Positions 5,232-62,017 of a DNA stretch of 64,000 bases are shown here, piece after piece; the stretch's first letter is position 1, and each line of letters opens with the position of its first letter. Where the stretch lies: contig OX419757.1 in NCBI GenBank assembly GCA_948567375.1, positions 15,700,974 through 15,764,973 on the forward strand, given 5' to 3'. The notes below the pieces were generated by a model, which saw only the letters and a list, made by a program, of their open reading frames with translations, did no database searches and was not told the origin of the DNA. The position numbers and the translations under genes are program-made. This stretch comes from Lunularia cruciata. Taxonomy: Eukaryota; Streptophyta; Marchantiopsida; Lunulariales; Lunulariaceae.

Positions 5232-6513
5232 AAGAATCTGCCCTATCGTACTTAAGATTTCTGAGATATGTCAATCGTATAGTCTACATCCAAATAGTAT
5301 AATTGTTCTCTGGATTCACCGGCCAATGTTATCTGGAGAGCGTTGGCGGGTGCTCTGCATGAAAATAAACGAACTTTGTATTCAAAGAGACACGTGCCTT
5401 TGTCAAGCCTACGGTACATGGTAGTATGGAGAAGATCTTTATCGGGTACAGATCAGTACAAAAGTGTCAAATGCAAAGTCATCCAATTTGACTCAGGGTC
5501 AAACTGGATGGCCTTTGGATCATGAAGGGCTGGATCAAGGCGTGCTAAAAGTCCTAGTAGACAAGAATCCAGCTTCATCTTTAATGATGCTAGGAGTTCG
5601 ATCATGGAAAGCACATCTGCGATATCATCGGATGTTTCGAACGAATATTCTTGAAAGGAATAGAGTACTCGAGTGTTAACTTTGGTTGTAGCAGATGATC
5701 TTAAAACTTGATCGTGCAGTACTTTATCCGAGTAAATTGAATGTCCGGTACATTCTAGCAATCGCTGCTTTGGAAATGCTGCTCTCGATCGCCCATTATT
5801 CTTTGGATCCTTACCTTACCTGGCCTCTTCAATGGTTAAATCTTAGGATTGCCGGAGTCTGCAAGTTGTTTTAAACGGAAAGCCAAAAGCGCAATTAATA
5901 CATCCTGAACGAAAAATACAAGGAATACAAGGCACCAAGAAGTGCAAAGGAGGGTCACGAGCGCGATGCCCAAAGAAGATAGTCTTATCTAAATAAGGAG
6001 AAAGAAGCAAAGTAATTTATTTTTGAACTGTATGATATAGATGTATGGTTATTTGTAGATGGAGGAGGAGAGTCTAGATGTACTAAAATGCAAAAGAAGA
6101 CTAAAATGCGATGCAGCCTAAAACAAAAACAAAGTAATTTAATATCAAACTTTGTGATGTAGATCCTCGGATATTTGGTAAATAGAGGAGTAGAATCCAA
6201 GATTTGTTGGGTACATCTAGGACTTTCTTATTTTGTTGCCTGTTTATGAGACCTAATGCTTGAGAGTATTGTAAAGTGATTGGGATTTTTTCTAAAATAG
6301 GAGATGAGCATGGTTGGAGAGACAAGCAAAGCTCTTCTCCTTTGGAGAAACCTTCTTGCTCCCTCTCACATGAGATCATTGAACTGGTAGTAAAGATGAC
6401 CAAAAGTCTATATAACCAAAGGTATAACAGTGTAAGAGGATAGCCATTATACTAATGGTCCTCCTTCCCCTTGGTGTGATGATTAATATTGTTCTTTGTC
6501 ACTCTATTTGTAG
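5232..6513. other. Non-coding interval
   Basis: Only short overlapping ORFs on both strands, with no recognised domain. From about 5980 the sequence becomes AT-rich with runs of GGAGGA. The right boundary is the TGTCGCAT start of the family-1 LTR. Confidence 0.4.
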
Positions 6514-6951
6514 TGTCGCATCTAGATTACTCGGACACTAGAGTTCCAGTGATAATAGTTAGAGTTATTTCACCAGTTTCTCAAAGATTACTTTCCGACG
6601 GTCAGATTTTGTTTTTGGGGTATTGACTTCACGGTGGGGCCCACCGTCACTTTGCACCATTTGCACCGTCAAGTTTGCCGTCAACGGGACGGTTAGGGTT
6701 TCAAACCTAGCTCGAGTCCAAGGGTATACTTTCGAAGTGCAACTCTAGAGAGCTTTCTTCTCTGATGTTGAGCCTTCGAGTTCTTGGCTATGGTGGACAA
6801 AGACCGGCGAGCGTCACTTGGATTCTCTTAGCTAGAGTGGGTGTGGCTTGACTGTAATCAGTGCACAATTGTTGGCAATTTATAGAGTGACAAATCAAGT
6901 ACTGATCTGAGTTGAGTGTATTTGAGAGTTGTAAACAATCTGATTATATCA
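6514..6951 (+). repeat. Probable 5' LTR of family-1 copy A
   Basis: Starts TGTCGCAT and ends in CA; matches 48895-49332 of copy B, both 438 bases as I delimit them. The right end is inferred only from a TG...CA fit and the beginning of leader sequence, because no 3' LTR is available for comparison. No clear tRNA-complementary PBS follows. Confidence 0.5.
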
Positions 6952-10085: not shown

Positions 10086-10407
10086 TCCGGGACCATGGCA
10101 ACATCAGTTTTAGCTTTTAGTGGTGCAGTTACTTGTTGGAGGGGAATGCCCATGTAGAGAATACTCTAGTACCAAAGGAGATCACTCAGATTTGGAGTAC
10201 AAGCAAGATTGTTCCATCCACCTTTGATGTTTGATTGTGGAGTTTAGAGGAGGCATTGCAAGAACATGCAGATCAGTTGGTGCAATAGGCTTGGAGTGGA
10301 ACCTTTGTACCATCGGCAGATGAGTGTGAGGATGAGCCTTCAAAGTTGATTACTTTGACACCTCTGGATACCACATTCATTGCTTGGCAGTATTTAGTAG
10401 GATATGT

Positions 10408-11366
10408 CTATTGGAGTTGTCCGGTGGGATTAGCACCGGACTAGCTATGGTATTATAGGCAGGTATACGAGTACAAATGTACTTGTATGTAGTGAGAGAT
10501 AAGACTGCTAGGTAAGTCTCTTTACATCATGCGGCACACTTGGCCTATTGGTATCCAGAGTTATTTTTGATATCAGCAATCAAAGGTTACCAGAAGGCCC
10601 TACAAGCAAATATTTCCCTATTGGGAGCGCATGATCTGAAGAGACATGGGCCTATTCACTTGATGATTTTTGAATGGCCATGTCAGAGATATACACATGC
10701 TGGCCGAGGTTTGGGTCTTCAAGATCCTTGTTCAGGTGTGTTCTGGGAGATGTTATGGATACTACAACATCTCCAGGTTCATCAATCTGTTTTGTCAACT
10801 TACCTTTTGGAGAGCGTTCCTTTGATGGGTGATTCTTGCACCATAGTGGTGGCGAGTACACATCAGGTCCATTCTTGGATGGGACCTATTTTATTGTTAG
10901 ATGTAGCAAGACTGGGATCACATGCTCATTGTCTTCATCTTTGGTGGACAAACCTCTTACCTAGAGAGGTTTTATAGCGTGCTTATGATGAGATTCATCG
11001 ACTTAACCACATCCTTGTTGATGGTATCTTGGATGTTGGACGTCAGTCTCAGATAGTGGTCGTGGCTGATAGGTCACCTATGGTAGTGGTGAACCTAGTT
11101 GGACAACCTAGAGCCGTATTTCTCACACTCATGAGTTTCCCAAGCTCTCATGCTTTTCAAGAAGGAGGACCTAGACTTGTTTGGGACTCATAGTTATAGC
11201 AGTTGGTGGAGCCCAATGCTGATGAGAGAGAGAGTGGGTGATGGGTTTTTGCACCGGTATTACCGTTGTTCTAGTAGTGTCAGAGGCATCCAAGCATCAG
11301 GTGTTAGGTCAAGCTATGGACTTGAACTGTTTGACCTGGACTATGAGCCTTGGTTTGGCAAAGCAG
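10408..11366 (+). pseudogene. C5-cytosine DNA methyltransferase domain inside a gypsy element (copy A)
   Basis: Enzymes with this fold methylate cytosine C5 using S-adenosylmethionine. Visible motifs in order: motif I (SAM-binding, ELSGGISTGLA, near 10411); a 145-codon open stretch from 10540 with motif IV (EWPCQRYTHAG, catalytic Pro-Cys, near 10672), motif VI (ESVPL where ENV is usual, near 10815) and a motif VIII-like segment (LGSHAH...WWTNL near 10912); and motif IX/X-like GQAMDLNCLTW near 11313 in another frame. It lies between the protease and RT of the same element and the same domain lies in copy B at the same place, so it is part of the element and not a chance neighbour. Stops and frameshifts make this copy inactive. 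The family is known from some charophyte and dinoflagellate retrotransposons. Confidence 0.85.
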
Positions 11367-11739
11367 CGTAGGATGTGCTTGATAGGCATCACCACTTGGA
11401 TACTTGTGAGCTCTGTGCCGGTCGAGACAATTCAAGCACATGCTGGGAGTGATGGACCAAGTGGACATGGTATTCTTGGGACATAGCCAATTGCTACTAG
11501 GGAGAGTGGTCTACTTGGAGTCTATCCAGGTGAGCGTGCGCTACTTGGATTACACCCTTGGTCCACTTGGGATGCAGCTAGAGGATGTGTGGAGCTTGCA
11601 GCCAGAGTGGAGGGAATTTTTTACACAGAGGTTGGGACCTCTAGTGGTCAAGGGCATGATACTATTGCTCCCAAGGGCCTAGTGTAGCAGCCAGTCAGTA
11701 TGTCTTCCACTCCTATGATAGTTATACAGGATACTTGGG

Positions 11740-12780
11740 AGCCAGATCTTGGACCCAAGCTTACTAGAGAGGAAAGATAGAGGTTTGGAGATTCTTGAGG
11801 AGTCACACGAGTTGTTTTGCCTTCAGTATGAAGGATTTGGGTGCTCTGAAGGGACATAGTATACGGATTGAGCTGACTAGCAATACACTAGTTTTCCGAC
11901 GTCTTTATTGAGATAGTGATATGGAGAGGACATTGATTTAGAGCCGGAGTAGTGACCTTTTTGAGACTGGTTTGGTGGAGATCTCACATGGAGAGTATGC
12001 ATCAGCGACAGTGATTCCAGCCAAGAAGGATATGCATGGCAACACACAAATAGGCGGATGTGTGGAGTTACCATCCTATCAACCGACAGACCAGGGTTGA
12101 TCGGTATGCCATGCCTACACCAGAGGATATTTTTTATGCGATTGGGCATGCAAAGGTCTTCAGTACTTTGGATCCTTGAGTGGAATATCATCAATTGCTG
12201 ATCAGAGAAGAGGAGAAGTCCAAGACAACATTCTGGGCTATTGATCTTCATGGCAAGGATGTGTTATATTAGTGAAGGTTCTTACCGTTTGGGGTAAAGA
12301 ACGCTCCTGCTGAGTTCTAGAGGGTCATGGATAGGATCCTAGCTAGATTGGATTTTGCTCAATGCTATATTGATGACATTTTGCTCTATAGCATTACTAT
12401 GGAGGAGCATGAGAGATAGTTGTTGGAGGTGTTTGAGAGGTTGAGATCTCATGGACTCAAATTACATCCTAGGAAGTGTAGGTTCTTCCATGAGCAAGTT
12501 GAGTATTTGGGTCACACTATCTACCCCAAAGGACTTGGTTTTTAGCAGACCAAGGTGGAGGTTATTGCACGTATTCCTTGGCCTGCGGATGTGAGCAAAG
12601 TGTGAGCATTTCTTGGGTTGGCAAACTTCTATTGCCGCTATGTTAGAGGATTTAGTGCCATTGCCAAGGCCTTGACAAAGCTGACCAAGCTTACATTGGA
12701 GTGGTGTTAGAAAGATGAGCAAGAGAGAGCTTTTGTAGAGCTCAAGGAGAGGTTGACATCTACTCCTATTTTTGAGGAGA
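11740..12780 (+). pseudogene. Family-1 reverse transcriptase remnant (copy A)
   Basis: Fragments in shifting frames include LVEISHGEYASATV near 11970, the catalytic YIDD box at about 12368 followed by ILLYS, then LRSHGLKLHP and a YLGHTIYP block near 12500, and FLGLANFYCRYVRGFS near 12610. Frameshifts are densest around 12060-12330. Copy B holds a better preserved 5' half. Confidence 0.8.
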
Positions 12781-13170
12781 CCGATCAAAGGACGACCATT
12801 TCAAGTTCATACAAATTGGAGTATGTTGGGGCTTGGAGCGGCGCTCACCCAACATGATGATGAGAAGGAGGAGTTTATGGTGGCCTATGCTAGTTGCTCC
12901 AACAATTCAGCGGAGGCAAAGTATAGTTCATATGAGGGAGAGTGCTTGGCAGTAGTTTGGGCATAGCACATTTCTGATGTTATCTATTTGGTAACCCTTC
13001 ACTCTCATCACTGATCATCAGTCGCTGAAGTGGTTGATGGAGTTCAACAAGCTTTCAGGGAAGCTTGCATGAAAGGCTCTGATTTTATAGGAGTATGATT
13101 TCACTGTTGTTCATAGACTTGGAGTGGTGAACCGTGATGTAGATGGGTTGAGTAGAAACCCATGTCCCAG
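12772..13170 (+). pseudogene. Family-1 RNase H remnant (copy A)
   Basis: FQVHTNWSMLGLGAALTQ matches the start of gypsy RNase H, but the first catalytic Asp is replaced by Asn. A second Glu block (EGECLAVVWA) follows, then a stop and frameshifts. The copy-B equivalent is deleted. Confidence 0.7.
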
Positions 13171-13269: not shown

Positions 13270-14460
13270 TTGGTGGTATCTCTCTCAGTGCATACAAGAG
13301 GAGTTATTGAGGTCATAGATCTAGAGAGTGAAGATATTGGTACAGTTCAGCGAGACATTCATGATGATGTCTTAGTGATGGACTATCTTTGCATTGGTGT
13401 TGTGAGTGGCACAATTGGGGCCAGGGAGAGAGACTATATTCTTCAGCAAGCCAGACGGTTCAGATTGGAGGGCAAACACCTTTTGTGTGTATGGGAGGAT
13501 GGTAGAGTGCAAGTAGTACCACTTCCATCTCAAAGATCACAATCGGTCCGTCATGCTCATGAGGAGCTAGGACATTTTGGAGTAAAGCGTACATATAGCT
13601 TACTCTAGAGTCATTATTGGTGGTGCGGTATGCAGACCAAGGTACAACAGTTTGTTGCCAAATGTGTGGTTTGTGACCGAGTTAGAGCATCATTCAATGC
13701 TTCTACACCACAGTTACACCTATTACCTATCATGGGATTGGGTTACCTTTGGAGTTTGGACTTTGCTGGACCTTTACCGTTGATTGTGAGACATCATTGG
13801 CATGTTTTGGTGATGGTGGAGCACTTCTCCAAGTGGATTGAGTTGGTGGCACTTCCTAACAAGTCTAGTGAAGGGACAACTTACTCATTCCTAGATCAAG
13901 TTCTTAGTCATTTTGGTGCACAAATTGAGGTTTTGACTGATCGGGGTATAGAGTTCTTGGGGGAGTTTCAGGTCTTGTGTGACAAGGCTTTGATTGATCA
14001 TCATACTACTTCCCGAGATCACCCTAAGGCAGATGACTTAGCAGAGAGAGTGGTTTAGATGGTGAAGAGAGGATTATAAAAGTATGGTTTGTAGAGAGGC
14101 CACTTGGGAGATTGGGATCTCCAATTACCTTGGTTGGCCATGGGCTATCAGTTCAGCCGGCAAGCTTCCTTAGCATCCTTCTCTCCATACTTTCTACTCT
14201 ATGGATGAGATCCAAATTTACCTATAGCCATTTGTCAAGATGCTACTATAGTCTTGGACTAAGATGATCCAGATGTATGGGTGAGCGTATGTTCTCAATG
14301 GGTAGAGACCTTTTGGAGAGTGATGCCGATGGCCTTTGAGAACTTGGCAATTGATCAGCATAAAGATACTTTACGCTATGCTACCATTTGAGGAGGAGGT
14401 TATAGACACTCGATTTGTCAATTTCATCCAGGTGACTATGTATATCTATAGCAGATAGCA
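13270..14460 (+). pseudogene. Family-1 integrase remnant (copy A)
   Basis: The zinc-binding region has HAHEELGHFG near 13549 and CVVC near 13660. Core residues are visible: Asp in SLDFAGP near 13760, Asp in LTDRG near 13939, Glu in LAERVV near 14040. Stops at 13606 and 14056 and frame changes after 14060 interrupt it. The segment 13270-14058 is nearly open in one frame, the best preserved pol region of this copy apart from the methyltransferase. Confidence 0.85.
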
Positions 14461-14463: not shown

Positions 14464-14802
14464 ATGACACTTGATGTTTCGACAAGCTGCACTATCTTGA
14501 GAGTGCGTGAGGTTTTGCCATGTGGAGTTTTTGTGTTGGAAGGACGTGATGGTGTTTTTTGGAAGGATCATGTGCACAATTATACACCATGCCACCTCCC
14601 AAACATTGATGGTATTATGTACCTAAGCTTGGCACTTGTACGTGCAGACTCGAGGTGTATGTTATGTGGCTCTTCTGGTGGAGCTACTACTATGTTAGTG
14701 TGTGATAGCTGTTCAAGAGGATGGCATATGGCATGTATGACTCCTCGTCTCACGGTGGTTCCTAAGGGTAGTGGTTATGTCCTAGATGTACTTGACCTAT
14801 AG
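14464..14802 (+). pseudogene. Integrase C-terminal tail with PHD finger (copy A)
   Basis: An integrase tail segment (LRVREVLP...GVFVLEGRDG) is followed by a C4HC3 zinc finger of PHD type. In frame: CMLC at 14656, CDSC after 11 intervening residues, then four residues, His, two residues, Cys, then TPRL and VPKG spacing typical of PHD fingers. The last ligand pair (W-x-CP-x-C) is present at 14772-14789 but one base out of frame, so the finger looks complete before a single-base loss. PHD fingers read histone H3 tails; here one sits where chromoviruses keep a chromodomain. Copy B ends before this point in the window, so it cannot confirm the module. Confidence 0.8.
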
Positions 14803-46259: not shown

Positions 46260-46390
46260 CATATAACACTCGATTAGTGAATAGTCGATTCTCTTCGGTT
46301 TTCAATAGCACTCTAGTGAAAAGTAGATTCTAATTATTATTTTGTTTCAAATAACACTCGAGTGAGTAGTAGATTCTGTTCATTTTTCAA
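46260..46390 (+). repeat. Degenerate ~50-bp tandem repeat, about 3 copies
   Basis: Phrases of the type ATAACACTCGA...AGTGA..AGT-GATTCT...TTTTCAA recur near 46262, 46306 and 46350. They lie just upstream of LINE sequence. Confidence 0.5.
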
Positions 46391-46419
46391 TTTCGGGTCC
46401 ATGGGTACCTAGATTGAAG

Positions 46420-47460: not shown

Positions 47461-47481
47461 TAGAAGGCCTGTGAGTTGGCC

Positions 47482-48871: not shown

Positions 48872-48894
48872 TCACGCCATTTAGATTTAGATAG

Positions 48895-49332
48895 TGTCGC
48901 ATTTAGATTGCTTGGACACTGGAGTTGCAGTGATAGTAGTGAGAGTTATTTTAGCAATTCCTCAAAGACTACTTTTTGATGGTTAGATTCTGTGTTTGGG
49001 GTACTGACTTCACGGTGGAGCCCACCATCACTTTGCACCGTTTGCACCGTCGAGTATGCCGTCAATGGGACCGTTAGGGTTTAGACCTAGCTTGAGTCCA
49101 AGGAGTATACTTTCAAAGTGCAGTTCCAAAGAGCTCACTTCTTTGATGTTGAGCCTTCGAGTTCTTGGCTATGGTGGACAGAGGCCGGCGAGTGTCACTT
49201 GGATTCTCTATGCTTGAGTGGGTGTGGCTTGATTGTAATCAGTGCCCAATTGTTGGCAGTTTATAGAGTGACATATCATGTATTGATTTGAGTTGAGTTG
49301 AGTTGAGAGTGATAAGCAATCTGATTACATCA
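48895..49332 (+). repeat. Probable 5' LTR of family-1 copy B
   Basis: Starts TGTCGCATTTAG, ends ...ATTACATCA; homologous to 6514-6951. Delimited by comparison and TG...CA ends only. Confidence 0.5.
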
Positions 49333-50690
49333 GAAAAGTGAGGTCAGGGGGAAATTGAGTGCAAGAACTTTAAGTGTTGGTGGTATCTCCAAGCTTGGTG
49401 GATCGTTGGTAGCTCAATTCAAGTTCGGTGTTTCTCTAGTGTGCAGAAGCTCGTTCAATTGATGCAGATTTGGTAGTAAGGCAGACGGTGTGTGGAACCG
49501 CTGGCCAAATTTTGAGCAAAGAAGGAGCAAATTTTGAGCGGTGGTTGTGATTTTGAGCTTAGGAGGTGAAGGCATGACCAATTTGCTACGAGTTGGGCTC
49601 AAAAAGTCAAATTGAAGGTGGAGTTGAGAAGCTATTCTCATGAATTTGTGATTTGGAGAAACCCATGTTGTCAATTTGGCTCAAGCAGAAAGTTAGCGGG
49701 GGATTTGGCGGATAGCCAACTTTAGGGTTAATGTCAAATTTTGACCAGATTTGGAGGAGTTTTTCTATTTGCCAAATTTGGAGGAGTTTTGCTAGTTTGG
49801 AGGACTTTCTTAGATTTGGAGAAGTTTTGCCAATTTTGGAAGAGGTTCGAAGTGGCAAGAAGAAAGACCTCATTTTGCTAAATTTTGGCGTTTAGAGGCT
49901 TTGAGGCATAGGGCTAAGAGAGGCTACAAAGGCCTAGAAGGGCCAGCCTGCTGGCGTGAGGCTAGCTAGTTTAGAGTAGATCTTGGTCATTGGTTGGCAA
50001 AATCTGCCTTTCCTGCTAGATTGTGCGCTACAGGGTTTGACCCCTAGATCTCTTGTTCCTAGACTGGTGCCCTAGCCAACTTGTCCACCCTCACTTGTTG
50101 TCCTAGTGACTGTGCCACTATTATCTATACACATGTAGCTTTGGCTACAAGAGGCAGTTTGATCTCATTCTTGGTGATCTTGGTAGCTTAGGATTTAGAT
50201 ATGAACTTCTCTTATGTCAAATGCCAAATGGTGGTAGAGTCAGTCTTGTGTTGTGTTATGAGATGGAGGGTTTTTGTTTAGATTTCTTGTGATTTGACCC
50301 CTTCCATTCTCTACTTCCTATTTGTGCACCACGTTTGTGTGAGGTGCCGTGACTTTTGAGCATTGGTGCTCTAGTGTGCTCTCGGTAGTGAGGTTGGAGT
50401 GATGACCAATTAGACTACCTTTGTTTCTCTCCGGTGAGGCAAGAAGTGATGACCTGCAGACCGTGAGAGTGTGTGACTTGATGGCAGGTTATAGGTTGCC
50501 TTTCCCCTAGTGTAGTTATCTTGGTTAGAGTTACATTAGTGGGTGGTGCTTAGTTGCTATTGGCACTTTGTGGTGTTTGCACTCGGTGGTGTTGGCACTT
50601 GGTGGGGTACTTGCGGTTGCGATTTGTGGTTGCAGTTGTGGTTACTTTGTCACGACGGAGTTTGTTGAAGATTCTAGAGGAGTTAGCACT
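49333..50690 (+). other. Family-1 copy B leader
   Basis: Homologous to 6952-8290. No long ORF until the gag region. The same GGAGGAGTTTTGC-type phrases appear near 49750-49830. Confidence 0.5.
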
Positions 50691-52350
50691 ACAATACACA
50701 ATAGGTTTACTCGGAGTGGTGCTTGGTATCAGCTTGTATCTCAGGTCCTAGTGAGGGAGGAGATTGCCTCTAAGTTGGAGTTTGACACAGGAGATGATTT
50801 AGTTGAGAGTGCACTTGGTGTGTCCGCACCATTGTTGTGGGACATGGACAAGATTTATGGGGCCTCCAAAGGCCCTAGGCATTACTCTGGTACAGTGGGT
50901 ACCATTGAGTTGGATGACTTCATCTAGGAGTTCAATAGTTGGTGTGATTTGCAACAGATGCGGAACTCAACTTTGTTCACACCCTTCATGGCATAGAAGG
51001 GGTTGTTTCAGCATTTAGAGGGTCCGCCGATGGATGACTATCATGAGTTCAGGAGAGTTCGTTTGGAGGAGATTGAGTTATGGAGACAGTATTGGTCTCC
51101 ACACTATGTCTCCATCACTTCAAGCTCGGTGGCCAGGAGTAGATTGGCTGTACCTACGAGTTCTAGCTCAAGTAGTGTTGGTGGAGCTAGTGGAGGTGCA
51201 CTAGCTAGAGATAGTGCTACTACAAGTGGAGGTACCATTACATGACGTGGTGTGGTACCGGGGTTTAACCCCATGGTGGAGTTCTTCCTATGTTTGAGGT
51301 AGAACTACCAAGGAGTGCGGACTGACAAGCTGAACTCTTGCAAGAGTTCAAGCAAAAGGCTGGAGAGAGCCTACGCGAGGCATACACTTGCATGAGGCGG
51401 CTGATCAATTTCACTCAGGGAGTTACTAAGGCCCAAGCAGTCCAGTTTTGCTATGGGATACTGGACAGGGAGTTGCAATGTAGAGTTCGTGATGCTACGT
51501 TGTTATAGGCTACTTTGCCTACTTTGGCAGTGGTCTTTGGTTTGGCTGAGCGTATTGAGCTCTACATGGTGGAGGAGAGGATGGTGACATCTGGATTTGG
51601 TACGGAGACCTCATCCACTGCTGTGACTTCTTCTAAAGTGTAGCGTGCACCACGCCTAGTTGGTTTTTGAGGACAAGGTGGACAGCTCATATCCTATAGA
51701 TCGAGTGGAGGGCCCAGTGGACTTAGAGCCTTACCTTCATTTTTGGGTCAATAGCAACCAATTAGTGGTGGTGTTGCTTGTTGGACTTGTGGTGGACCTC
51801 ACCATCAGAGAGAGTGTACTCAGGGTAGTGGACTTGATACCTCGGGTGCATCACAACCACACAAAGACAATGTGAGCACTGCCATAGATTTGGTCACACA
51901 AGTGACCGGTGTTTTGACCTACACCCGGAATTGCAGAGTGGTAGGGCTGCTATGGCAGGTAGTAGAGGAGCTCCAATTCATGGAGGACAAGGTGGTAGAG
52001 GTGGTGGTAGAGGATCTACACCTAGTAGGGGTGCAGTACCTGCCCTTACTTCTGACACAGCTATGGCTACTTGGATTGAGCAATTGGAGTAGAGATTGGC
52101 TAGTATGGCTATTGCTCAGAGGAGATCAGTTTCAGGTGCGGAGGCTTCTACCTCATATGCTGGTGATAAAGATGCTTTAGACTTCATGTGCGGAGCAACA
52201 TAGGTGGATGCATCTGCAGCAGTGATTAGGAGTGCAGTACATCCTCTAGAGCCTAGAGGAGCATTAGTGGAGTTGGACCCACAAAGAGGAGAGGTTGGGA
52301 GACAGGTCAGAATTTCCTAGTCTTTCACGCTATTTGAGGCATTGTAGACA
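50691..52350 (+). pseudogene. Family-1 gag (copy B)
   Basis: Open from about 50691 to 50924 (LVREEIASKLEFD; MDKIYGASKGPRHY), then stops. The DDYHEFRR block (51030), a capsid-like EAYTCMRRLINFTQG segment (51380), and two zinc knuckles follow: CWTCGGPHHQREC near 51772 and canonical CEHCHRFGHTSDRC near 51876. A Gly/Arg-rich tail (GGQGGRGGGRG) lies near 51985-52015. This copy supplies the 700 bp missing from copy A. Confidence 0.8.
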
Positions 52351-52356
52351 ACATCC

Positions 52357-53544
52357 ATGGTTCCTAGACATCCTAGTGCAGGTGTGGTAGGTAATGAAGG
52401 AGTGCATGATGGACTACTTGCTAGTCAGTCACCTACTACTACACAGATTGAGTCTAGCATGATGTTGGAGGCGGCTCAGTTGATTATGCGGCATCCTTTG
52501 TTTTTGGCCAGTGACATGTTTACATTGGGAGTTGACCCAGCCCCAGTGTTCCAGTTTGCTGCCACGTTGTGTGAGAGTAGGGATGGTGCAGTTCCTACTA
52601 CTAGAGCAGGGGTGGTTGGTAGTGGAGCTGACTTGGTTGAGGAGCATGGGATCCGTTCAGCGACCAGTGGTTTGTGGCATGTAGCAAAGGCTAGACTAGA
52701 GGAGTTGCAAGCTAGACCAGCCTTTGATAGAGCGCGGTTTACACCTGGTGTTGTCCTATTGGATAACCAGAGGGGGATTTCTTGTTTGGTGGGACCTTCA
52801 GGGAAGGTCTATATACCACAAAGAGTCTTGTTAGACTTTGGTGCACAGCCTCTTATGTTAGGGAAGGCTGCAGTTGTCGATCTGGAGTTACGGAAGACCA
52901 ATGTAGAGAGGTGTCCATTTCATATCCAAACATCTCTAGGTGGTGGTTCAACATAGTACATCACATGTGGGGAGCTTGTTGTCCAGGTTCAGCCTGGTTA
53001 TCCGATTGATAGCTCAGTGGTGAGAGCTCAGGCTTTTGCGACAATAGCTGAGTCATATGATGTGCTAGTTGGGGGAGCAATGTTATACCACATGGGTTTC
53101 AACATTGACTATTGGGAGGAGACAACCTCTTATAGACCTGGTTGGCAGTCTGGTGAGGGACGGGCATGTCGCCTACCAGTACGCTTCAGTAGTGGCAGTC
53201 TTGGCTCACTACAGTCCGGGACCATGGCAGCATCAGTTTTAGCTTTCAATGGTGCAGTTACTTGGCCTGGTGACTTTTTAGAGGGTAATGCCCATGCAGA
53301 GGATACTCCAGTTCCAGAGGAGATCACTCGGCTTTGGAGTACAAGTGGGATTTTTCTATCCACCTTGGATGTTCCATTCTGGAGTTCAGAGGAGGCATTG
53401 CAGCAGCATGCAGATCAGTTGGTGCAGCAAGCTTGGAGTGGAGCCTTTGTACAATCAGGAGATGAGTGTGAGGATGAGCCTCCAAAGGCAATTTCTTTGA
53501 CACCTCTGGATACCACACTCATTGCTTGGCAGTATCAAGTAGAG
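52357..53544 (+). pseudogene. Family-1 protease region (copy B)
   Basis: Open 199-codon stretch 52357-52956 with RVLLDFGAQPLMLG, the retropepsin active site with Phe in place of Ser/Thr. A second open stretch from 53017 has ESYDVLVGGAMLYHMGF and continues without break into DNMT motif I. The continuity shows that protease and DNMT were one polyprotein. Confidence 0.75.
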
Positions 53545-53833
53545 GGGATATGCCCATTGGAGTTCTTTGGTGGGATCAACACTAGACTAGCTGCGGTATT
53601 ATAGGCGGGTATACGAGTACAGAGGTACTTGTATGTAGAGAGAGATGAGATTGCTAGGCGAGTCTCTCTACATCATGTTGCACACTTGGCCTATTGATAT
53701 CCTAAGTTATTACCAATGTCAGCAGTCAAAGGTTACCAGAAGGCCCTACCAGCAGACATCTTACTAGGGGCGCATGACCTAGAGAGACATGGGTCTATTC
53801 ACTTGGTGATTTTTGGATGGCCATGTTAGGGAC

Positions 53834-54188
53834 TGTGAGCCGGCCTGTCTCTCACTCAGGATGAACCTCTGATGGCTATTATGGTAGCGCACCATGGACT
53901 AAGAAGGCAAGGAACCCCAACTCCATCATACTCCTCCAAGGCTAACACTCCAAGACTCAAGACATTGCTCACTAGAGAACTCAATGAGAGAGAGATAGTT
54001 GCAAATGAAAGGATGATGAGTACCTCCTCACTCCTTGTTTATATACTTGTGAAATAGTTACGTACCAAAGTTACTAATTACCGTAGTAACTCAAGTTACT
54101 AGACTAAAAGTCAAGTAAAGTCAAAAAGTAGAAAGGAATATCCATTCACATGGGCATATTCCCCTAAGCATGTGGTCTTATCTTGACC
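53834..54188 (-). repeat. Extra partial LTR copy (355-bp tandem duplication)
   Basis: Repeats the first 355 bases (plus-strand order) of the adjoining LTR at 54189. At several sites it agrees with the other LTR at 61326 where the adjoining copy does not (AAGGAACC, GCAAATGAAAGGATG, CGTACC). Confidence 0.93.
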
Positions 54189-54880
54189 TGTGAGCCGGCC
54201 TGTCTCTCACTCAGGATGAACCTCTGATGGCTATTATGGTAGCGCACCATGGACTAAGAAGGCAAAGAACCCCAACTCCATCATACTCCTCCAAGGCTAA
54301 CACTCCAAGACTCAAGACATTGCTCACTAGAGAACTCAATGAGAGAGAGATAGTTGCAGATGAAAGGATCATGAGTACCTCCTCACTCCTTGTTTATATA
54401 CTTGTGAAATAGTTACGTATCAAAGTTACTAATTACCGTAGTAACTCAAGTTACTAGACTAAAAGTCAAGTAAAGTCAAAAAGTAGAAAGGAATATCCAT
54501 TCACATGGGCATATTCCCCTAAGCATGTGGTCTTATCTTGACCCAACCACTAAAGCAAGGATTCCTTCACATGGGCTATCCTTGGACTAAAGAAGAATCC
54601 AAAACAAAAAGGCTTGCGGGCCCAAGAGTTCTCAACTCTTTCCCCAAAGCCAAACACCTAGGAATAATACCAAGTCAACACACTAAAATCCAAAATAGTG
54701 GTGCTCATCTTTTCTACTTCCTCTAAAGTAAGGTCCCATCTATCTTAGCTATGACTAACTTTAGCTAACCATGACTAATATAGAACCATCCTTTATCTCT
54801 ATATAAATAATATCTCTTAAGTACTTGTAATACCAAGCTAAATATCACAATACCACACACATGCACAAATGGGTGTTACA
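54189..54880 (-). repeat. Family-3 3' LTR
   Basis: 692 bp, TG...CA on either strand; partner of 61326-62017. Confidence 0.95.
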
Positions 54881-54892
54881 TTTACCCCCGGA
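54881..54892 (-). other. Polypurine tract of family 3
   Basis: On the minus strand TCCGGGGGTAAA directly before the 3' LTR. Confidence 0.7.
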
Positions 54893-54928
54893 CTAAGTTT
54901 TCACTTTGTCCTCAAAGTGAAGGTCTCT

Positions 54929-57900
54929 CTACCTTCTATGGTACATCTTCAACTTATCATGGTTAATCCTATCAAAGTGTCTTCCTCCCAACTCCTTGAG
55001 ATCATAAGTGTAATTTCCCCACACCTTCTCTACTATGAAAGGTCCAAAGTACTTAGGCAAAAACTTCTTTTGTACTCTCTTGAATCGAATGGAATCAAAC
55101 AACATTACCCAATCACCTTCTTTGAAAGGCTCCACCTTCTTCTTGCCTTGCCTCTTGTCATAGCTCTCCTTTTGTTTCCTTTGGGCTTGCTCCACTCGAA
55201 CCATAGCAACTGCTCTTGCCTCTTCCAACTCCATGAGTTGATCCTTCCTTGACTTCTCTGCATCACTTCCTTGTGCTTTCTTCAATCTCCTATGAATGCT
55301 TTGGAAGGTAGGAAGATCAAAGTGAATAGGTAAGGTAGACTCAATACCATACACCAATTGGAATGGAGAATATCCAGTGGAAGTCTTCATGGTTGTCCTA
55401 TACTCCCACAAAACTGCATGAATCCTCTTGTCCCAATGATGTTTAGCCCCCTCCATTTCTGCATCTTTGGCCAACATCATGCACAAGGTCTGATTGGTTC
55501 TCTCTGCCAAGCCATTGGAATTTGGCTTATAGGATGTAGTTACTCTATGTGTGATAGAGAAATGTCGTAGCATGGCTGTAGTAATGCTTCCTGTAAACTC
55601 TCCTCCTCTATCAGAAACCAACTCCAAAGGGCATCCAAACCTAGTGATAATGCGTTCATAAAGAAATCTACCCACTTCATCTTCATTCTTGTCCCTCAAT
55701 GGTCTAGCCTCAACCCACTTGGTAAGGTAATCAGTAACTACCACAATGTACCGATTGTTCCTTGGGGTTCTATTGAGAGGTCCTACAAAATCAATTCCCC
55801 ACTTCTCAAAGGGTCCTAGCAATGGAATTGATCTAAGTGGTGGAGTGGATGTAGACTTTCTAGCAAAAGCTTGACAAACATGACAAGTTTTGCAATAATC
55901 AAGACAATCCTTGAAAATCCCTCTCCAATGGTAACCTGCATCTAGAATCTTGAAAGCAGTCACCTTTCCTGCAAAGTGTCCTCCACATACTAAACCTTCA
56001 TGAAACTCCTTTATGAGTAGGATAGACTCTTCCTTACCCACTGCTCTTCGAAGTAGACCATCTGCTCCTTGGTGAAAAAGAATATCATCCACCATTGTGT
56101 AAGGTCTAGATCTTGCTGCAAGGGCCTTCCTCTCCCTAGCATGCATCCCTTCTGGATAGTTACCTCTTGTCACAAAATCCACAATCTCCTTGTACTCCAT
56201 TGGAACCTCTTGAGTGACTGAGATTGTCATGAGCTCCTCATCCGGGAAGGAATCATCTACTGGCTCATCTCCATCATGATCATAGGCTCTAGATAACAAA
56301 TCAGCATTTGCATGTTTCTTTCCTGGCCTATCCTCAATTGTGTAGTCATACTCAGACAAGAGAATCATCCACCTTGCTAGTCTCCCTTCAACATTAGGCT
56401 TGTTGAAGATGTACTTCAAAGCCTTGTGATCCGTGACAATTGTGGCTTTCCCTCCAATCAAGTAGTGTCTAAACTTCTTGAGACCAAAGATCACTGCCAA
56501 CCCTTCTCTCTCTGTGACAGAGTAGTTCTTCTCTGCTGAAACCATCTGCCTACTAGCATAAGCTATTGGATGATCATGCCCATCTTGGTCTAATTGACTA
56601 AGAGTGCATCCTATAGCTACATTAGAAGCATCAGTGTAGAGGATGAAAGGCTTACTCCAATCAGGTTTAGCAAGAATTGGAGCTACAACAAGGGATTGCT
56701 TGAGCTCCTCAAAAGCTTTGAGAGCCTCCTTGTCTTCCAAAATCACCATGTAATCTACACCCTTCTTCATGTAGATGGTCAATGCATAAGCCTTGTTGGA
56801 AAATGAGAAGATGAACCTCCTATAGTACCCAACCATTCCCAAGAATTGGCGTAACTTTGTCAAGCTTGAAGGGAATGGAAGGTCTGAGATTTTCCTCACC
56901 TTCTCAGGATCAACTGCTATTCCATCCTTGGAGATGATGTGCCCCAAAAGTAGACCTTCTTCACATCCAAAAATGCACTTCTCTGGGTTGAGTGATGCAT
57001 TTGCCTCATCCAAGCGTTGCAAGACTTTGATTAGGTGCTCAAAGTGCTCCTCCTTGCTCCCATAGACACAAAAGTCATCAATGAAATCTCTCACAAATTT
57101 CCCAATGAAAGGTTCAAATACCTTGTTCATGAACCGTTGGAATGTGGCTGGAGCATTGCAAAGCCCAAAAGGCATGACCTTGAAAGCGTAAGTTCCCCAA
57201 GGTGTGGTGAATGTGGTGAGTTGTTGATGCTCTGGTGCAATCTTTATTTGGTTATATCCACTATAACCATCTCCAAAATTGTACCTCTCATGACCTGCAA
57301 CCTCCTCCAAGATCTCATCAATGAATGGCAATGGGTAGTAGTCCTTCTTGGTAACAGCATTGAGCTTCTTGTAATCCACACATACCCGAAGCTTGCCATT
57401 CTTTTTCTTCACAATGACAATTGGAGACACCCATTCTGAATTCTCCACCTCAAAGATAAATCCAGCCTCCTTGAGCTTATCAATCTCCTCCTTCACAACC
57501 AAAGATATTGGTGGGCTAATGTGACGTTGCTTTTGGCGGATTGGTCTTGCATGTGACTCCACCTCTATCTTGTGCTCCTCCAAGGTGACTTCCTTCAAAT
57601 CCTTGTAACTAAAAGCAAACACATGGATGAACTTGCGGAAAATCTCCTCAAATCTCACCTTCTCCTCCTTGGTAACATTTGGGCCATACTTGAGGGTAGA
57701 TAACCTTCTCTCTACCTCCTCAAGTGTCAATGGTGATTTATCTGGGTCCTTCAAAACCTCTGGCTTAGGTGCAAAATCCATAGCACACAAGGGATACACA
57801 TCTGAATCAGATTCAGATTCATCCTCCTCCGTGGAAGTCTCCTCTTCCATGCTTGTGTCCACACCTGAAGCTCCTTCTTCAGAATCTGATTCCCAATAAT

Positions 57901-59755
57901 TAGAAGATGGGGTATCTGAATGTGAAGTGTTGGTGGTGTTAGTCACAGGAACAGTGACTCTATGGTTTGATGGCCCAATCCTCAAGTACCCTTTGTGCCA
58001 TCGATCAGTTGTGCGTGCTGCTCTCAACCATGGCCTCCCAAGAAGTAAGTCATAGCTTGAATCCTTCAAGACTTGGAAAGTCATGAGATTTTGAACTCCC
58101 ATAACTGAAACTACCACCTTATCCATCACTCCTACTGGTCGAACTTGTTGCTTGTTTGCCATGCTCACCACAAATGTTGAAGCTCTTGAGGGTATCATAC
58201 CCAACTTCTTCATCAACCTTTCTGACATGGCATTCACTGCTGATCCTCCATCAACCAATGCATCCTTGATGTTGTGACCATTCACTCTCACATCAATCTT
58301 GGAGGCATATTCACAAGCTTCCCATGGTGCTGGCTTGGCATCCACCACCCCCATTGATATTGGAACTTTTGCCTTCTTCTTCTTCTTGCTCCTTGTAGAA
58401 CTCAAACCACCTCTAAGCTCCTTTCTCAAGGTAGGGTTCAAAGCAATTAATTGGCCCACTGTGATGTTAGCCTTGTGACTACCAACATCCTCCAACACAT
58501 TGTAGTTCCATTGTTGCTTGGAGATCAAGAAGTCCTCCATCCCCAACTTCTTCCTTGGAGTCTTTGTTGTTGATGGTGTTGAGGTGCGAGTGCTCCTAGT
58601 AGACATAGGAGTATCCTTGCTTGAAGTAAATCCTTGAGAAGAGTGAACATCCTCTGCAAAACGAGCTCTCTTCTTCTCTTGTGCCAAAAGCTCCAAATTA
58701 GGACCCTTGGAGTTTGAGCACTCTCCCTTCTCATACTTGCTCTCAACCACATCTATGGATGCTATCCCCTTACCTTTGTTGGGATTAGGAGCCACTTGGG
58801 TTTCACTACCTCCCTCTTTCCCTCTATTGGCTCCCTCATAACCCCTTCCTCCATGGTAAGTGGAATTTGGGCAATTCCTTTGGATATGGCCTCTTCCCCC
58901 ACAACCAAAACAATTTCTATCATTGAAATTGTTGGCTGGTTGGCCTCCTCTATATGGATGGTTTCCATAACTCCTAGGCCCTCTCCCTACATTCTGATCC
59001 ACCTCTCTCTTCTCCCATAATTGCACCACATTGATCTTGAGATCCGCAAGTTGTTCTGTGATGGTTTGGAGTGGATCTTTTGGTGGAGGTGCAAGAACTG
59101 GAGCAACTACTACTTGTGGTGCAACCCTTGTCACCAAAGTATCAGAAGTTCCACCATACTTGTAGCCTTGAGGAGGATGCACAACCTCCTTCACCACCAA
59201 ATCACTTTCATCCCCTTCCAAACTCTCCTCCATACGAATTGCGATCTTGATAGCTTCAACCTTGGAAGAAGGTTTCTCATATCTCACCTTGCTTCTAATT
59301 TGTGGTCTCAATCCTCCCACAAAATTCTTGGTGAGCATGGCCCCTATGCCAATCATTGTAGTCTCCACATCATCCCCACCCTTCCTCAACACTATGCGAA
59401 ATCTGGACTCCAATTTTTCCACTCTTTCCACATAGACCCTCACTTTCTCTCCATCTCCTTGCTTGAGAAATGTAACCTCACTCATCAATCTCTCATAACT
59501 CTCATCAGGAAGAAAGTTCTCAATGAGTGCTGAAGTCAAAGTCTCCCAAGACTCCTCTTCCCCCTCTCTCCTCTCTCTCTTTTGGTATTCTGACTCATAC
59601 CATGTAAGTGCTGCATCCTCAAAGAAATCTGGTAATAATGAGGCCCACTCATTCTTCCTCCTCTCATTGTTTCCTATGCAAGCTCTCTTGAAGTCTCTCA
59701 CAAAGGCCTCCACATCTTCTCCATCCTTGCCAAAGAAAACCGGAAGTTTCCCCAT
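54929..59755 (-). CDS. Family-3 Gag-Pol polyprotein, intact (1608 aa)
   Basis: One open frame encodes the whole replication machinery. Residues 1-200: retrotransposon gag core (DAALTWYESE; KVRVYVERVEKLESRF). CCHC zinc knuckle 282-295 (CFGCGGRGHIQRNC). Protease with Asp502 in LVDGGSAVN, a D-G-G-S form seen in the Tat group instead of D-S/T-G. An acidic linker, 620-655. RT about 730-930: Asp829 in FGDGYSGYNQI and FIDD at 891-894. RNase H with Asp1042, Glu1084, Asp1109. Integrase with H1252/H1260/C1291/C1294, then Asp1322, Asp1382 and Glu1418 (D,D-35-E), and a GPF segment near 1571. It ends soon after with no chromodomain or PHD. All catalytic residues expected are present, so it could be active. 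Start at the ATG after the leader, 200 bases past the zinc-knuckle ORF. Confidence 0.95.
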   Translation of the reverse strand: MGKLPVFFGKDGEDVEAFVRDFKRACIGNNERRKNEWASLLPDFFEDAALTWYESEYQKRERREGEEESWETLTSALIENFLPDESYERLMSEVTFLKQGDGEKVRVYVERVEKLESRFRIVLRKGGDDVETTMIGIGAMLTKNFVGGLRPQIRSKVRYEKPSSKVEAIKIAIRMEESLEGDESDLVVKEVVHPPQGYKYGGTSDTLVTRVAPQVVVAPVLAPPPKDPLQTITEQLADLKINVVQLWEKREVDQNVGRGPRSYGNHPYRGGQPANNFNDRNCFGCGGRGHIQRNCPNSTYHGGRGYEGANRGKEGGSETQVAPNPNKGKGIASIDVVESKYEKGECSNSKGPNLELLAQEKKRARFAEDVHSSQGFTSSKDTPMSTRSTRTSTPSTTKTPRKKLGMEDFLISKQQWNYNVLEDVGSHKANITVGQLIALNPTLRKELRGGLSSTRSKKKKKAKVPISMGVVDAKPAPWEACEYASKIDVRVNGHNIKDALVDGGSAVNAMSERLMKKLGMIPSRASTFVVSMANKQQVRPVGVMDKVVVSVMGVQNLMTFQVLKDSSYDLLLGRPWLRAARTTDRWHKGYLRIGPSNHRVTVPVTNTTNTSHSDTPSSNYWESDSEEGASGVDTSMEEETSTEEDESESDSDVYPLCAMDFAPKPEVLKDPDKSPLTLEEVERRLSTLKYGPNVTKEEKVRFEEIFRKFIHVFAFSYKDLKEVTLEEHKIEVESHARPIRQKQRHISPPISLVVKEEIDKLKEAGFIFEVENSEWVSPIVIVKKKNGKLRVCVDYKKLNAVTKKDYYPLPFIDEILEEVAGHERYNFGDGYSGYNQIKIAPEHQQLTTFTTPWGTYAFKVMPFGLCNAPATFQRFMNKVFEPFIGKFVRDFIDDFCVYGSKEEHFEHLIKVLQRLDEANASLNPEKCIFGCEEGLLLGHIISKDGIAVDPEKVRKISDLPFPSSLTKLRQFLGMVGYYRRFIFSFSNKAYALTIYMKKGVDYMVILEDKEALKAFEELKQSLVVAPILAKPDWSKPFILYTDASNVAIGCTLSQLDQDGHDHPIAYASRQMVSAEKNYSVTEREGLAVIFGLKKFRHYLIGGKATIVTDHKALKYIFNKPNVEGRLARWMILLSEYDYTIEDRPGKKHANADLLSRAYDHDGDEPVDDSFPDEELMTISVTQEVPMEYKEIVDFVTRGNYPEGMHARERKALAARSRPYTMVDDILFHQGADGLLRRAVGKEESILLIKEFHEGLVCGGHFAGKVTAFKILDAGYHWRGIFKDCLDYCKTCHVCQAFARKSTSTPPLRSIPLLGPFEKWGIDFVGPLNRTPRNNRYIVVVTDYLTKWVEARPLRDKNEDEVGRFLYERIITRFGCPLELVSDRGGEFTGSITTAMLRHFSITHRVTTSYKPNSNGLAERTNQTLCMMLAKDAEMEGAKHHWDKRIHAVLWEYRTTMKTSTGYSPFQLVYGIESTLPIHFDLPTFQSIHRRLKKAQGSDAEKSRKDQLMELEEARAVAMVRVEQAQRKQKESYDKRQGKKKVEPFKEGDWVMLFDSIRFKRVQKKFLPKYFGPFIVEKVWGNYTYDLKELGGRHFDRINHDKLKMYHRR

Positions 59756-59990
59756 CTTAACCCCTCACTATCTTTCTTTTCTCTTAATTTTTTTTTTCTC
59801 TTTTCTTTTCTCTCACTCTATTACTAATAGAGTATATACATGACTAACACCATCTGAGAATAATCCACTCTAGGGAACACAAAAGGTTCAGGTTGCTCCA
59901 AGATTTCTATAGCAACATCAAATCCTAGAGTGCATATTAATCTAACTCTCATGGATAGTTTATCCATAAGTTGAAAGATTATCTCCATCA

Positions 59991-60488
59991 CTAATCTTGA
60001 GAACTAGCTGATGAAGGTGGTAGTATTTCTGTAGCTGTACTAAGACTCTCTCCAAGATCCTTCACCAAAGTTTCCAAAAGTGCTTTTACTCCACTACACT
60101 CATGTCCTTTTGGAAGTCCTTCAACTCCACAAACCTCACACAACTCCTTGGTCTTAGATCTTCTCCCTCCCAATCTTGGTGAAGAAGGTCCAACATGCAA
60201 ACCCAAGTCAAGTAAGCCTCTCCTTTCCCTCAATCTCTTGCTCTCAAAGGTTAATGGACATGAACTTGCCTTATGTCCCTTCTCTCCACATAGAAAGCAC
60301 TTAGACTCACTCTTTCCTCCAAGTGGTGTAGGTTTTTGGATCCTCTCAACACTCTCTTCAAATTCTATTGTAAACTCTCTTTTCCTCAAATCCACCCCTA
60401 CAATCACCTCAAACCCTTGGGGAACCTTGCATAATCTCAATTTCCACTCTTGATGACCCTCCATGTTCCCAAAGATGAATCTAAACAC
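59991..60488 (-). CDS. Family-3 leader ORF with zinc knuckle (165 aa)
   Basis: An uninterrupted ORF between 5' LTR and gag-pol, same strand. Residues 1-65 read like a small RNA-binding-type domain of DUF4283 flavour (MFRFIFGNMEGHQEWKLRL) and 66-85 hold a CCHC knuckle (CFLCGEKGHKASSC). A second Cys/His cluster follows (CEVCGVEGLPKGHEC). It is additional to the knuckle in gag. A 62-codon ORF (60625-60437) overlaps its start in another frame and may be its original 5' part. Possible roles: nucleic-acid binding or packaging; unknown. Openness in a young element suggests it is, or was, translated. Confidence 0.6.
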   Translation of the reverse strand: MFRFIFGNMEGHQEWKLRLCKVPQGFEVIVGVDLRKREFTIEFEESVERIQKPTPLGGKSESKCFLCGEKGHKASSCPLTFESKRLRERRGLLDLGLHVGPSSPRLGGRRSKTKELCEVCGVEGLPKGHECSGVKALLETLVKDLGESLSTATEILPPSSASSQD

Positions 60489-60625
60489 TCAAACATGCTT
60501 TTTGTTGATCTCAAACTTCTCATGCATGAGATCTCCACTCTGCAGAATTGACCCTTCCTCACAATGTCACTCAAATCTCCCAACGAATATGTCACAGTCC
60601 TCTGAAATTTTCCACACTTGATCAC
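60437..60625 (-). CDS. Family-3 leader ORF, 62 aa, overlapping the zinc-knuckle ORF
   Basis: Reads MIKCGKFQRTVTYSLGDL then VRKGQFCRVEISCMRSLRS, ending at 60437 inside the next ORF. No recognised domain. It could be the N-terminal part of the 165-aa ORF displaced by a frameshift, or an independent upstream ORF. Confidence 0.35.
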   Translation of the reverse strand: MIKCGKFQRTVTYSLGDLSDIVRKGQFCRVEISCMRSLRSTKSMFECLDSSLGTWRVIKSGN

Positions 60626-61113
60626 AACTCTAGGGCGTCCCTCCCTGCAAAATTTTAGATATTTTCATCAAGCCATTTGGCCTAGACACCTTTCTATTCA
60701 GCACCCATATTTCAGATTTGGTCTGAAAACCACCCCCCTCACTTCAAAAACTCATACCGCACTGCGCAAAAATGATCTCTCTCTAATTTTTGTGGCACCA
60801 GGTAGGATACAATGCACTGAATTTTCTTAGAAAATTTTTAGGACAATTCACTAAAAATTGAAGAAATGGCAGACTCTGTACAATTTTCCAGAGAGCATGC
60901 AGTTGCGGGAGCACTTTACCCTATCAACTTTCAAAAATTCTAGCCCAGTGCGCATAGAAGCTCTCTCAATAATTTCAAGTGTGCTAACTGAAAGATAACC
61001 CAAGCTATCATGTGTAGAAATCTCAAGTCCAGATCTCAAACTTGAGATTTTGCCCAAAATCACCTTAATCCCCAAAATCTGCAATCCACCTCACACAATC
61101 TCTCCAATTCCTC

Positions 61114-61284
61114 TCATGTGTACAAGATGTACAAAATCACCTCAAAGACATCATAATGAACTACAGGGTATACAAATGGATCTTGGTTCTCTAACATAAG
61201 TTCAGCCCTCTCCTCTCCTAATGTTCTCTCCAAGTGAGCTCTCATAGCCTCCTTCTGCCTAATGTAGAATTGGATGCGGAACAT
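61114..61284 (-). CDS. Family-3 first leader ORF (56 aa), homologue of family-2 upstream ORFs
   Basis: Starts 19 bases past the PBS, reads MFRIQFYIRQKEAMRAHLER, then LGEERAELML, DPFVYPVVHYD and LYILYT. Matches family-2 ORF a at MR-x-x-L, G-x-E, M near the middle, P-x3-P-x-V-x-YD and YIL. An in-frame earlier Met at 61345-61347 lies inside the LTR, so the Met at 61284 is preferred. Function unknown. Confidence 0.55.
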   Translation of the reverse strand: MFRIQFYIRQKEAMRAHLERTLGEERAELMLENQDPFVYPVVHYDVFEVILYILYT

Positions 61285-61302
61285 TATCTTGCCTTCTAGA
61301 GA

Positions 61303-61321
61303 GGTCCCGGCAACGGAACCA
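61303..61321 (-). other. Primer-binding site of family 3
   Basis: On the minus strand TGGTTCCGTTGCCGGGACC starts four bases after the 5' LTR. It resembles the TGGCGCCGTTGCCGGGG type of Athila-like elements (tRNA-Asp primer) but differs at three positions near the 5' end and one at the 3' side. The priming tRNA is therefore uncertain. Confidence 0.7.
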
Positions 61322-61325
61322 AAAA

Positions 61326-62017
61326 TGTGAGCCGGCCTGTCTCTCACTTAGGATGAACCTCTGATGGCTATTATGGTAGCGCACCATGGACTAAGAAGGC
61401 AAGGAACCCCAACTCCATCATACTCCTCCAAGGCTAACACTCCAAGACTCAAGACATTGCTCACTAGAGAACTCAATGAGAGAGAGATAGTTGCAAATGA
61501 AAGGATGATGAGTACCTCCTCACTCCTTGTTTATATACTTGTGAAATAGTTACGTACCAAAGTTACTAATTACCGTAATAACTCAAGTTACTAGACTAAA
61601 AGTCAAGTAAAGTCAAAAAGTAGAAAGGAATATCCATTCACATGGGCATATTCCCCTAAGCATGTGGTCTTATCTTGACCCAACCACTAAAGCAAGGATT
61701 CCTTCACATGGGCTATCCTTGGACTAAAGAAGAATCCAAAACAAAAAGGCTTGCGGGCCCAAGAGTTCTCAACTCTTTCCCCAAAGCCAAACACCTAGGA
61801 ATAATACCAAGTCAACACACTAAAATCCAAAATAGTGGTGCTCATCTTTTCTACTTCCTCTAAAGTAAGGTCCCATCTATCTTAGCTATGACTAACTTTA
61901 GCTAACCATGACTAATATAGAACCATCCTTTATCTCTATATAAATAATATCTCTTAAGTACTTGTAATACCAAGCTAAATATCACAATACCACACACATG
62001 CACAAATGGGTGTTACA
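61326..62017 (-). repeat. Family-3 5' LTR
   Basis: 692 bp, starts TGTAACACCC on the minus strand. A TATATAA on the minus strand at 61531-61537 is a candidate TATA box. Confidence 0.95.
61531..61537 (-). promoter_or_regulatory. TATA-like box in family-3 5' LTR
   Basis: Minus-strand AAGTATATAAACAAGG lies about 200 bases before the LTR end and is unchanged in the other LTR copies. Confidence 0.5.

Follow-up and report, generated by a model that had tools for sequence, protein, structure and literature searches.

The stretch described here, called the window, is 64,000 nucleotides of the liverwort Lunularia cruciata (C6:15700974-15764973, contig OX419757.1, of a 565.8-Mb host genome assembled in 74 contigs). 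It holds two copies, A and B, of a Ty3/Gypsy long terminal repeat (LTR) retrotransposon in which a DNA methyltransferase (DNMT) domain of the DNMT3 type lies between the protease (PR) and the reverse transcriptase (RT). An original prediction, made from the letters of the window, had placed a C5 cytosine methyltransferase there in both copies, and the blocks it named (motifs I, IV and VI, a motif VIII-like block and GQAMDLNCLTW) are indeed present in canonical order. Other genomic copies were compared as loci L001-L036; L001 is copy A, and as L031 and L032 repeat the places of L002 and L016, the loci cover 34 places in all. The features of the two copies are as follows.

Copy A
6497..6947, + strand: 5' LTR, ~450 bp, aligned to the LTRs of L032, L033, L035 and L036
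8756..8797, + strand: gag zinc knuckle CX2CX4HX4C, by motif scan; also in L034, L035 and L036
9699..9716, + strand: protease active-site block LLDSSA, by motif scan
10405..11342, + strand: DNMT3-type C5 cytosine methyltransferase domain, decayed (stops, frameshift, catalytic residues lost)
11685..11687, + strand: in-frame TAG, then CAG CCA (UAG CAR YYA readthrough context)
12048..12524, + strand: RT region, approximate, by offset from L036 (RVT_1 E 1.7e-32); YIDDI at 12366-12380 by motif scan
12717..13100, + strand: RNase H (RH) region, approximate, by offset from L035 (RT_RNaseH E 2.3e-36)
13744..14025, + strand: integrase (IN) core, PF00665 E 1.4e-11
14656..14763, + strand: C-terminal PHD finger, PF00628 E 3.4e-8 (E 1.7e-11 in L036)
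15072, + strand: end of the internal region, by alignment with L033, L035 and L036

Copy B
48892..53832, + strand: 5' part with LTR, gag, protease and the DNMT start (~53545-53832), 85% identical to copy A; translation
53833..62018, - strand: nested gypsy element (control family F2), which splits copy B within the DNMT
62019..62690, + strand: remaining DNMT, 87% identical to copy A; translation
63012..63014, + strand: in-frame TAG CAG CCA

In copy A, the motifs follow one another in a single frame from 10405 to ~11240, with GGIS at 10423, WPCQ at 10675-10686, LESVPL at 10807-10824 and next GPILLLDVARLGSHAHCLHLWWTNLLP. The frame shared by the predicted blocks does not extend to GQAMDLNCLTW, which is reached at 11307 only past a frameshift. 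The copy has lost the Phe of motif I, the Glu of motif II, the Asp of motif III, the Asn of motif VI and both Arg of motif VIII. With its stops, its frameshift and the changed residues in motifs I, II, III, VI and VIII, the enzyme of copy A is predicted to be dead. The protease of copy B had been thought to read open into motif I; one stop lies between the protease motif and the open stretch into motif I, and it is another genomic copy, L036, in which gag through the DNMT end forms a single open frame of 1433 amino acids. The protease block reads LLDSGA in L034 and L036 and was not found in L035 by the motif scan. No 3' LTR of copy A was found within the window when the window was compared with itself.

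Copies of the element across the genome

The search for less decayed copies was fruitful, L036 being an example. LTR pairs of ~450 bp are present in four of the six fetched 10-kb genomic stretches (L031-L036), and their identity by BLAST is 82.2% in L032, which is older and carries a large deletion, 95.8% in L033, 96.0% in L035 and 97.3% in L036. With gaps excluded, the Kimura two-parameter distance between the LTRs is 0.044 for L033, 0.021 for L035 and 0.007 for L036, the latter two ending at the border of the fetched stretch. With an angiosperm rate of 7e-9 substitutions per site and year, the LTR ages are ~3.1, 1.5 and 0.5 million years, respectively. Judged by its LTRs, the family appears to have been mobile recently.

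In the genomic copies, Pfam domains are ordered as gag (weak, below cut-off), DNA_methylase (27.0 bits in L036), RVT_1, RNase H, H2C2, rve and PHD, and the DNMT is located between gag-PR and RT in L035 and L036. The LTR pair, together with RT-RNaseH ahead of the integrase, assigns the element to Ty3/Gypsy. The order gag-PR-DNMT-RT-RH-IN-PHD, proposed from the window, is thereby borne out.

An intact DNMT piece of 153 amino acids was matched at all 150 scored genomic places, copy A included, with 76-100% identity (9750 first-look candidates). At least 10 of the matches listed from the genome search fall in open frames of 1428-1431 amino acids. A pattern of 27 bp, located where the first open reading frame (ORF1) ends, has 996 exact matches in the genome and 0 for the control. 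Because this pattern is contained in just 10 of the 30 loci L001-L030, the family may be guessed at ~3000 copies, or ~5% of the genome at 9.5-9.8 kb each, a rough figure from a biased sample of loci. The host genome probably holds thousands of copies; a 580-Mb assembly of L. cruciata is described as inflated by Ty3/Gypsy elements in the relevant passage of PMC9985172. The size of the family, like the conserved stop discussed below, goes beyond what had been predicted.

Identity and relatives of the methyltransferase domain

When copy A was read with X in place of its stops (P0001), 15 homologues were found, the best with E 4.5e-97. Because of these homologues and the 150 genomic matches, the motif pattern of copy A is more than a product of chance. 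The curated cut-off of PF00145 is 22 bits, and copy A (13.8), P0001 (12.6), P0002 (20.2) and P0007 (20.5) lie below it. Tested copy by copy with the profile that the original prediction had named, the cut-off is exceeded in L036 and among the relatives: in three of eight proteins (P0003 with 42.7, P0006 with 36.2 and P0004 with 23.4), in four of five (P0039, P0046, P0053, P0059) and in four of seven (P0017, P0028, P0030, P0033). PF00145 is also precomputed on 26 of the 45 proteins from the search with the L036 DNMT. The low score of copy A could be taken as a sign of a fragment of a host gene, or of a frame open by chance, within one retrotransposon. We regard this as refuted, as the other copies carry the domain at every scored place and, in L035 and L036, in its position between gag-PR and RT. 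Neither outcome that would have overturned the original prediction (PF00145 lacking, here judged copy by copy, or the domain absent from other copies) was seen.

Among C5 methyltransferases, the DNMT3 class is closest in fold and sequence, and the motif order I, IV, VI, VIII, X is canonical, so the predicted identity stands and can be narrowed to the DNMT3 type. Plant DRM shares the DNMT3 superfamily with the element DNMT, but its motifs are permuted (VI-X before I-IV), and a DRM origin is excluded by the canonical order of the element. The identity to the catalytic domain of mammalian DNMT3A/DNMT3B is ~25%; unlike these, the element has a PHD finger at the far end of the polyprotein, and no ADD or PWWP domain was found beside its DNMT in Pfam scans. 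Single-sequence folding of P0003 gave a pLDDT (predicted local distance difference test) of only 34, and phmmer of copy A against PDB was uninformative.

The motifs were counted in 39 proteins, 22 of the 61 being left out since too little of the domain was covered. The catalytic Cys, the Glu and Asn of ENV and both Arg of motif VIII are nearly invariant. In 15 of the 39 proteins, motif IV has EC instead of PC (Glu for Pro before the catalytic Cys), with the methyltransferase otherwise conserved. It could be argued from this substitution, and from the lack of activity seen in yeast for the Klebsormidium nitens enzyme (reported in the passages on it in PMC5890265), that the domain is retained for nucleic-acid binding or particle assembly, its catalysis being lost. 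Binding alone, however, would not require the near-invariant residues, and we consider such a role rather improbable.

The search with the DNMT part of L036 ORF1 gave 45 proteins among 7985 scored, including proteins of Marchantia polymorpha, with identities up to 70%, and of Sphagnum fallax, with 48%; a relative is also known from Calypogeia. Two main architectures are seen. In the first, of the liverwort type and Sphagnum, the DNMT is upstream of RT; in a sister group (P0028, P0030, P0033), Pfam places an aspartyl protease upstream of the DNMT. In the second, e.g. P0039, P0046, P0053 and P0059, the order is RT-RNaseH-DNMT-H2C2-IN-PHD in a single frame. P0061 has the order DNMT-RT-RNaseH-IN, and its position in the tree is unsure (long branch). 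The main DNMT tree, built from 39 of the 61 proteins along with P0038, P0013, three copies of our own and a partial DNMT3A, separates the two architectures (96/95 and 92/86). In it, P0038 of Sphagnum fallax is nested in the liverwort-type elements beside P0004 (100/99), which could be horizontal transfer, contamination or loss elsewhere. In the RT tree, the 23 DNMT-bearing rows are separated from two further gypsy families of the window, which are its only outgroups (100/98, with the bootstrap not settled).

For the comparison with host genes, a selection of 19 proteins was joined by four of our own copies and by three outside sequences, namely host DNMT3 (L037), host DRM (L039) and human DNMT3A. 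As the host DNMT3 (L037; C7, ~31.99 Mb) has a canonical motif order and at least two exons, its recent capture by the element might be imagined, the more so as BLASTP ranks it first among the three outside sequences for 13 of 44 element sequences. For 29 of the 44, however, the best is the partial human DNMT3A (DRM for 2), and in the tree, which is unrooted and has DNMT3A in part, all 23 element DNMTs fall together (100/100), separate from host DNMT3, host DRM and human DNMT3A. With relatives spread over liverworts, Sphagnum and other contigs as well, recent capture is highly improbable. The grouping of the element DNMTs apart from host DNMT3 and DRM, and the separation of the two architectures, suggest instead a single old acquisition of the DNMT, followed by a later move of the domain.

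The best match of L037 in PDB is DNMT3A. The possibility that the element carries the sole canonical DNMT3 of the genome was ruled out, as the best match of a DNMT3A search is this two-exon host gene. For Marchantia, the relevant part of PMC5784723 lists five DNMTs found via Arabidopsis genes (one MET, two CMT and two DRM) and no DNMT3.

The in-frame stop and selection on the domain

After the DNMT, a stop is present at the aligned site in 29 of the 30 loci L001-L030 (27 TAG, 2 TAA), the remaining locus being unalignable. The exact context TAG CAR YYA is found in 20 of these 30 and in all of L031-L036, two of which are longer stretches of places already counted. CAR YYA is called essential for UAG readthrough in tobacco mosaic virus in the corresponding passage of PMC2754532. 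Beyond the UAG, ORF2 (RT-RNaseH-integrase-PHD) lies in the same frame as ORF1 (gag-protease-DNMT), and in L035 it runs in phase for 1029 amino acids. The element thus has the sequence features of UAG readthrough, i.e., UAG CAR YYA with the frame open in phase. Because the in-frame stop comes directly after the DNMT, the methyltransferase is predicted to belong to the Gag-protease product, and RT-RNaseH-IN-PHD would probably be made by readthrough. Gypsy elements with a gag-pol stop, such as rice RIRE2, which is cited as a readthrough candidate in PMC2754532, share an in-frame stop in the polyprotein; compared with RIRE2, as known from that passage, the stop here is placed after gag-PR-DNMT.

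The arrangement seems old, judging from the proteins of relatives, since these end shortly past motif X: by 93-99 amino acids in P0004, P0006, P0013 (Calypogeia), P0017 (Marchantia), P0019 and P0026 (Marchantia), and by 137-147 in P0028, P0032 and P0033 of the sister group. P0003, P0009, P0010 and P0024, which end 18-35 amino acids after motif X, were taken as incomplete and excluded from the stop count. The annotated models P0020, P0023, P0025, P0027 and P0038 extend into RT, RNase H or IN with the stretch around the stop missing, a gap that may come from gene-model splicing or from deletion.

The DNMT is under purifying selection. Among the six copies of L001-L036 with an open DNMT stretch, the pooled ratio of nonsynonymous to synonymous substitution rates (dN/dS) is 0.378, a value somewhat lowered by the choice of open copies. 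Neutral decay from one copy was simulated with the mutation spectrum of copy A and with stops forbidden too; the mean was 0.78 (1-99%: 0.51-1.25), and none of 300 runs was as low as observed. For RT/RNaseH, dN/dS is 0.168 in three copies against 0.72 under neutrality, again with 0/300 runs as low. For gag-PR, the comparison was broken by indels between copies and was not used.

As for the remainder of the window, the gypsy element nested in copy B has an open gag-PR-RT-RH-IN frame of 1611 amino acids (54929-59764), a separate upstream 165-residue ORF with a CCHC knuckle (59991-60488), LTRs that are 99.1% identical and an additional partial LTR copy (53833-54188). Two exon-like ORFs at 41306-42067 (+) belong to a host gene of the DJ-1/PfpI family, with Pfam scores narrowly below the cut-off for one and narrowly above it for the other. 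Two inverted repeats of ~1.1 kb, 75% identical to each other, lie at 29079-30142 and 46360-47467; the single scanned ORF in the pair (29540-29911) has no Pfam match.

A proposed role and its place among known elements

The reading preferred here, to which we give a probability of roughly 0.72, is that of a bryophyte Ty3/Gypsy family that would be a long-term carrier of a DNMT3-type methyltransferase, with the enzyme supplied at Gag level via a leaky stop and methylating the copy or the target chromatin. The majority of ribosomes would terminate past the DNMT, which would set enzyme synthesis at Gag level and bring the enzyme into the particle; the smaller part would read through the stop to give the full polyprotein. 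In the particle or the nucleus, the DNMT would probably methylate either the newly made DNA copy or chromatin at the target site, and the PHD finger may help to select this site. Copy protection, quiet co-existence and copy-number control are candidates for the selective benefit.

Several observations weigh against this reading. The DNMT of the Klebsormidium element was without activity in yeast, a result called inconclusive by its authors in the passage concerned (PMC5890265). The dN/dS of the DNMT (0.38) is laxer than that of RT/RNaseH (0.17). In RNA folding, neither the surroundings of the stop nor the part 3' of it showed an unusual structure (z 0.3-0.6). The 996 YAG sites that match the 27-bp pattern genome-wide divide into 994 TAG and 2 CAG, a ratio that reflects the source elements and is by itself no proof of constraint after insertion, because a T to C change is rare anyway.

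The decay of old copies must also be considered here. In the copy A lineage, C to T and G to A account for most of the changes, with 96/316 at CG (30%), 137/571 at CHG (24%) and 123/2011 at CHH (6%), which fits, as expected, 5-methylcytosine at CG and CHG. Such decay would be in keeping with self-restraint, in which the DNMT methylates the new DNA of the element, so that copies fall silent immediately and both their number and the damage to the host are kept low; slowed retrotransposition is raised as one possibility by de Mendoza and colleagues in the relevant passage of PMC5890265. However, a control gypsy element without a DNMT decays alike, with 9/23 at CG (39%), 10/50 at CHG (20%) and 51/1028 at CHH (5%), though these counts are small and their direction is not polarised. 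Because of this similarity, the decay points to methylation by the host, nothing in it indicates the element's own enzyme, and the earlier idea of an element hidden or tuned by self-methylation gains no specific support from it. Old copies were probably methylated like other elements. Probably thousands of copies and an LTR divergence down to 0.007 would, moreover, mean poor restraint, so self-restraint is unlikely.

The preferred reading may be extended to a scenario that we hold only tentatively and would not bet on. An old gypsy lineage would have fixed a DNMT3 in its particle before land plants arose or early in their history, at Gag level via the leaky stop, and the domain would have moved within the polyprotein between a position upstream of RT and one before the integrase. 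Together with the PHD finger on the integrase side, the element would possess its own chromatin reader and DNA-methyl writer, the latter acting on its copy or target site at integration, perhaps aiding the filling of a liverwort genome.

Of the systems known, KnitGypsy-Dnmt3 (de Mendoza et al. 2018, PMC5890265), found in the charophyte Klebsormidium nitens, comes closest; the following comparison is limited to its published description. Both are Gypsy-type retrotransposons whose polyprotein includes a DNMT3 domain that is not rearranged and is under purifying selection. KnitGypsy-Dnmt3 has an algal host, fewer copies than the Symbiodinium elements, a DNMT described in the Pol ORF and repeats described as DIRS-like, whereas the present family has probably thousands of copies, ordinary LTRs, a DNMT placed in ORF1 ahead of the conserved stop, and a C-terminal PHD finger. 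SymbioDIRS-Dnmt3 and SymbioLINE-Dnmt of Symbiodinium, described in the same paper, are also retrotransposon-borne DNMTs, and the SymbioDIRS enzymes methylate CG in yeast; they belong, however, to unrelated retrotransposon classes in a dinoflagellate host. The relevant passages of that paper do not mention Marchantia or mosses and name bryophytes once, for sequences clustering with multi-exonic Dnmt3. The passage on this subject in PMC12344493, which cites the 2018 work, mentions DNMT3s borne by retrotransposons of streptophytes and dinoflagellates. Among the matches listed in our literature searches, no report of a land-plant retrotransposon bearing a DNMT was seen, as judged by title and abstract start, with subscription journals mostly outside the search. 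The predicted extension of the 2018 finding to land plants holds, and these are, as far as literature searches show, the first land-plant members of the DNMT-bearing retrotransposons. The general kind is already known from algae; new here is the placement of the DNMT before a conserved leaky-type stop. Bryophytes are an exception to the stated absence of element-borne DNMT3 from land plants.

DNA methylation by the host is a main brake on plant transposons. A transposon that keeps its own DNMT3 under selection raises the question of what it gains from writing its own silencing mark. As relatives are carried by Marchantia polymorpha, a genetic model, this question is open to experiment, and the conserved stop yields a measurable prediction of how much enzyme each particle contains.
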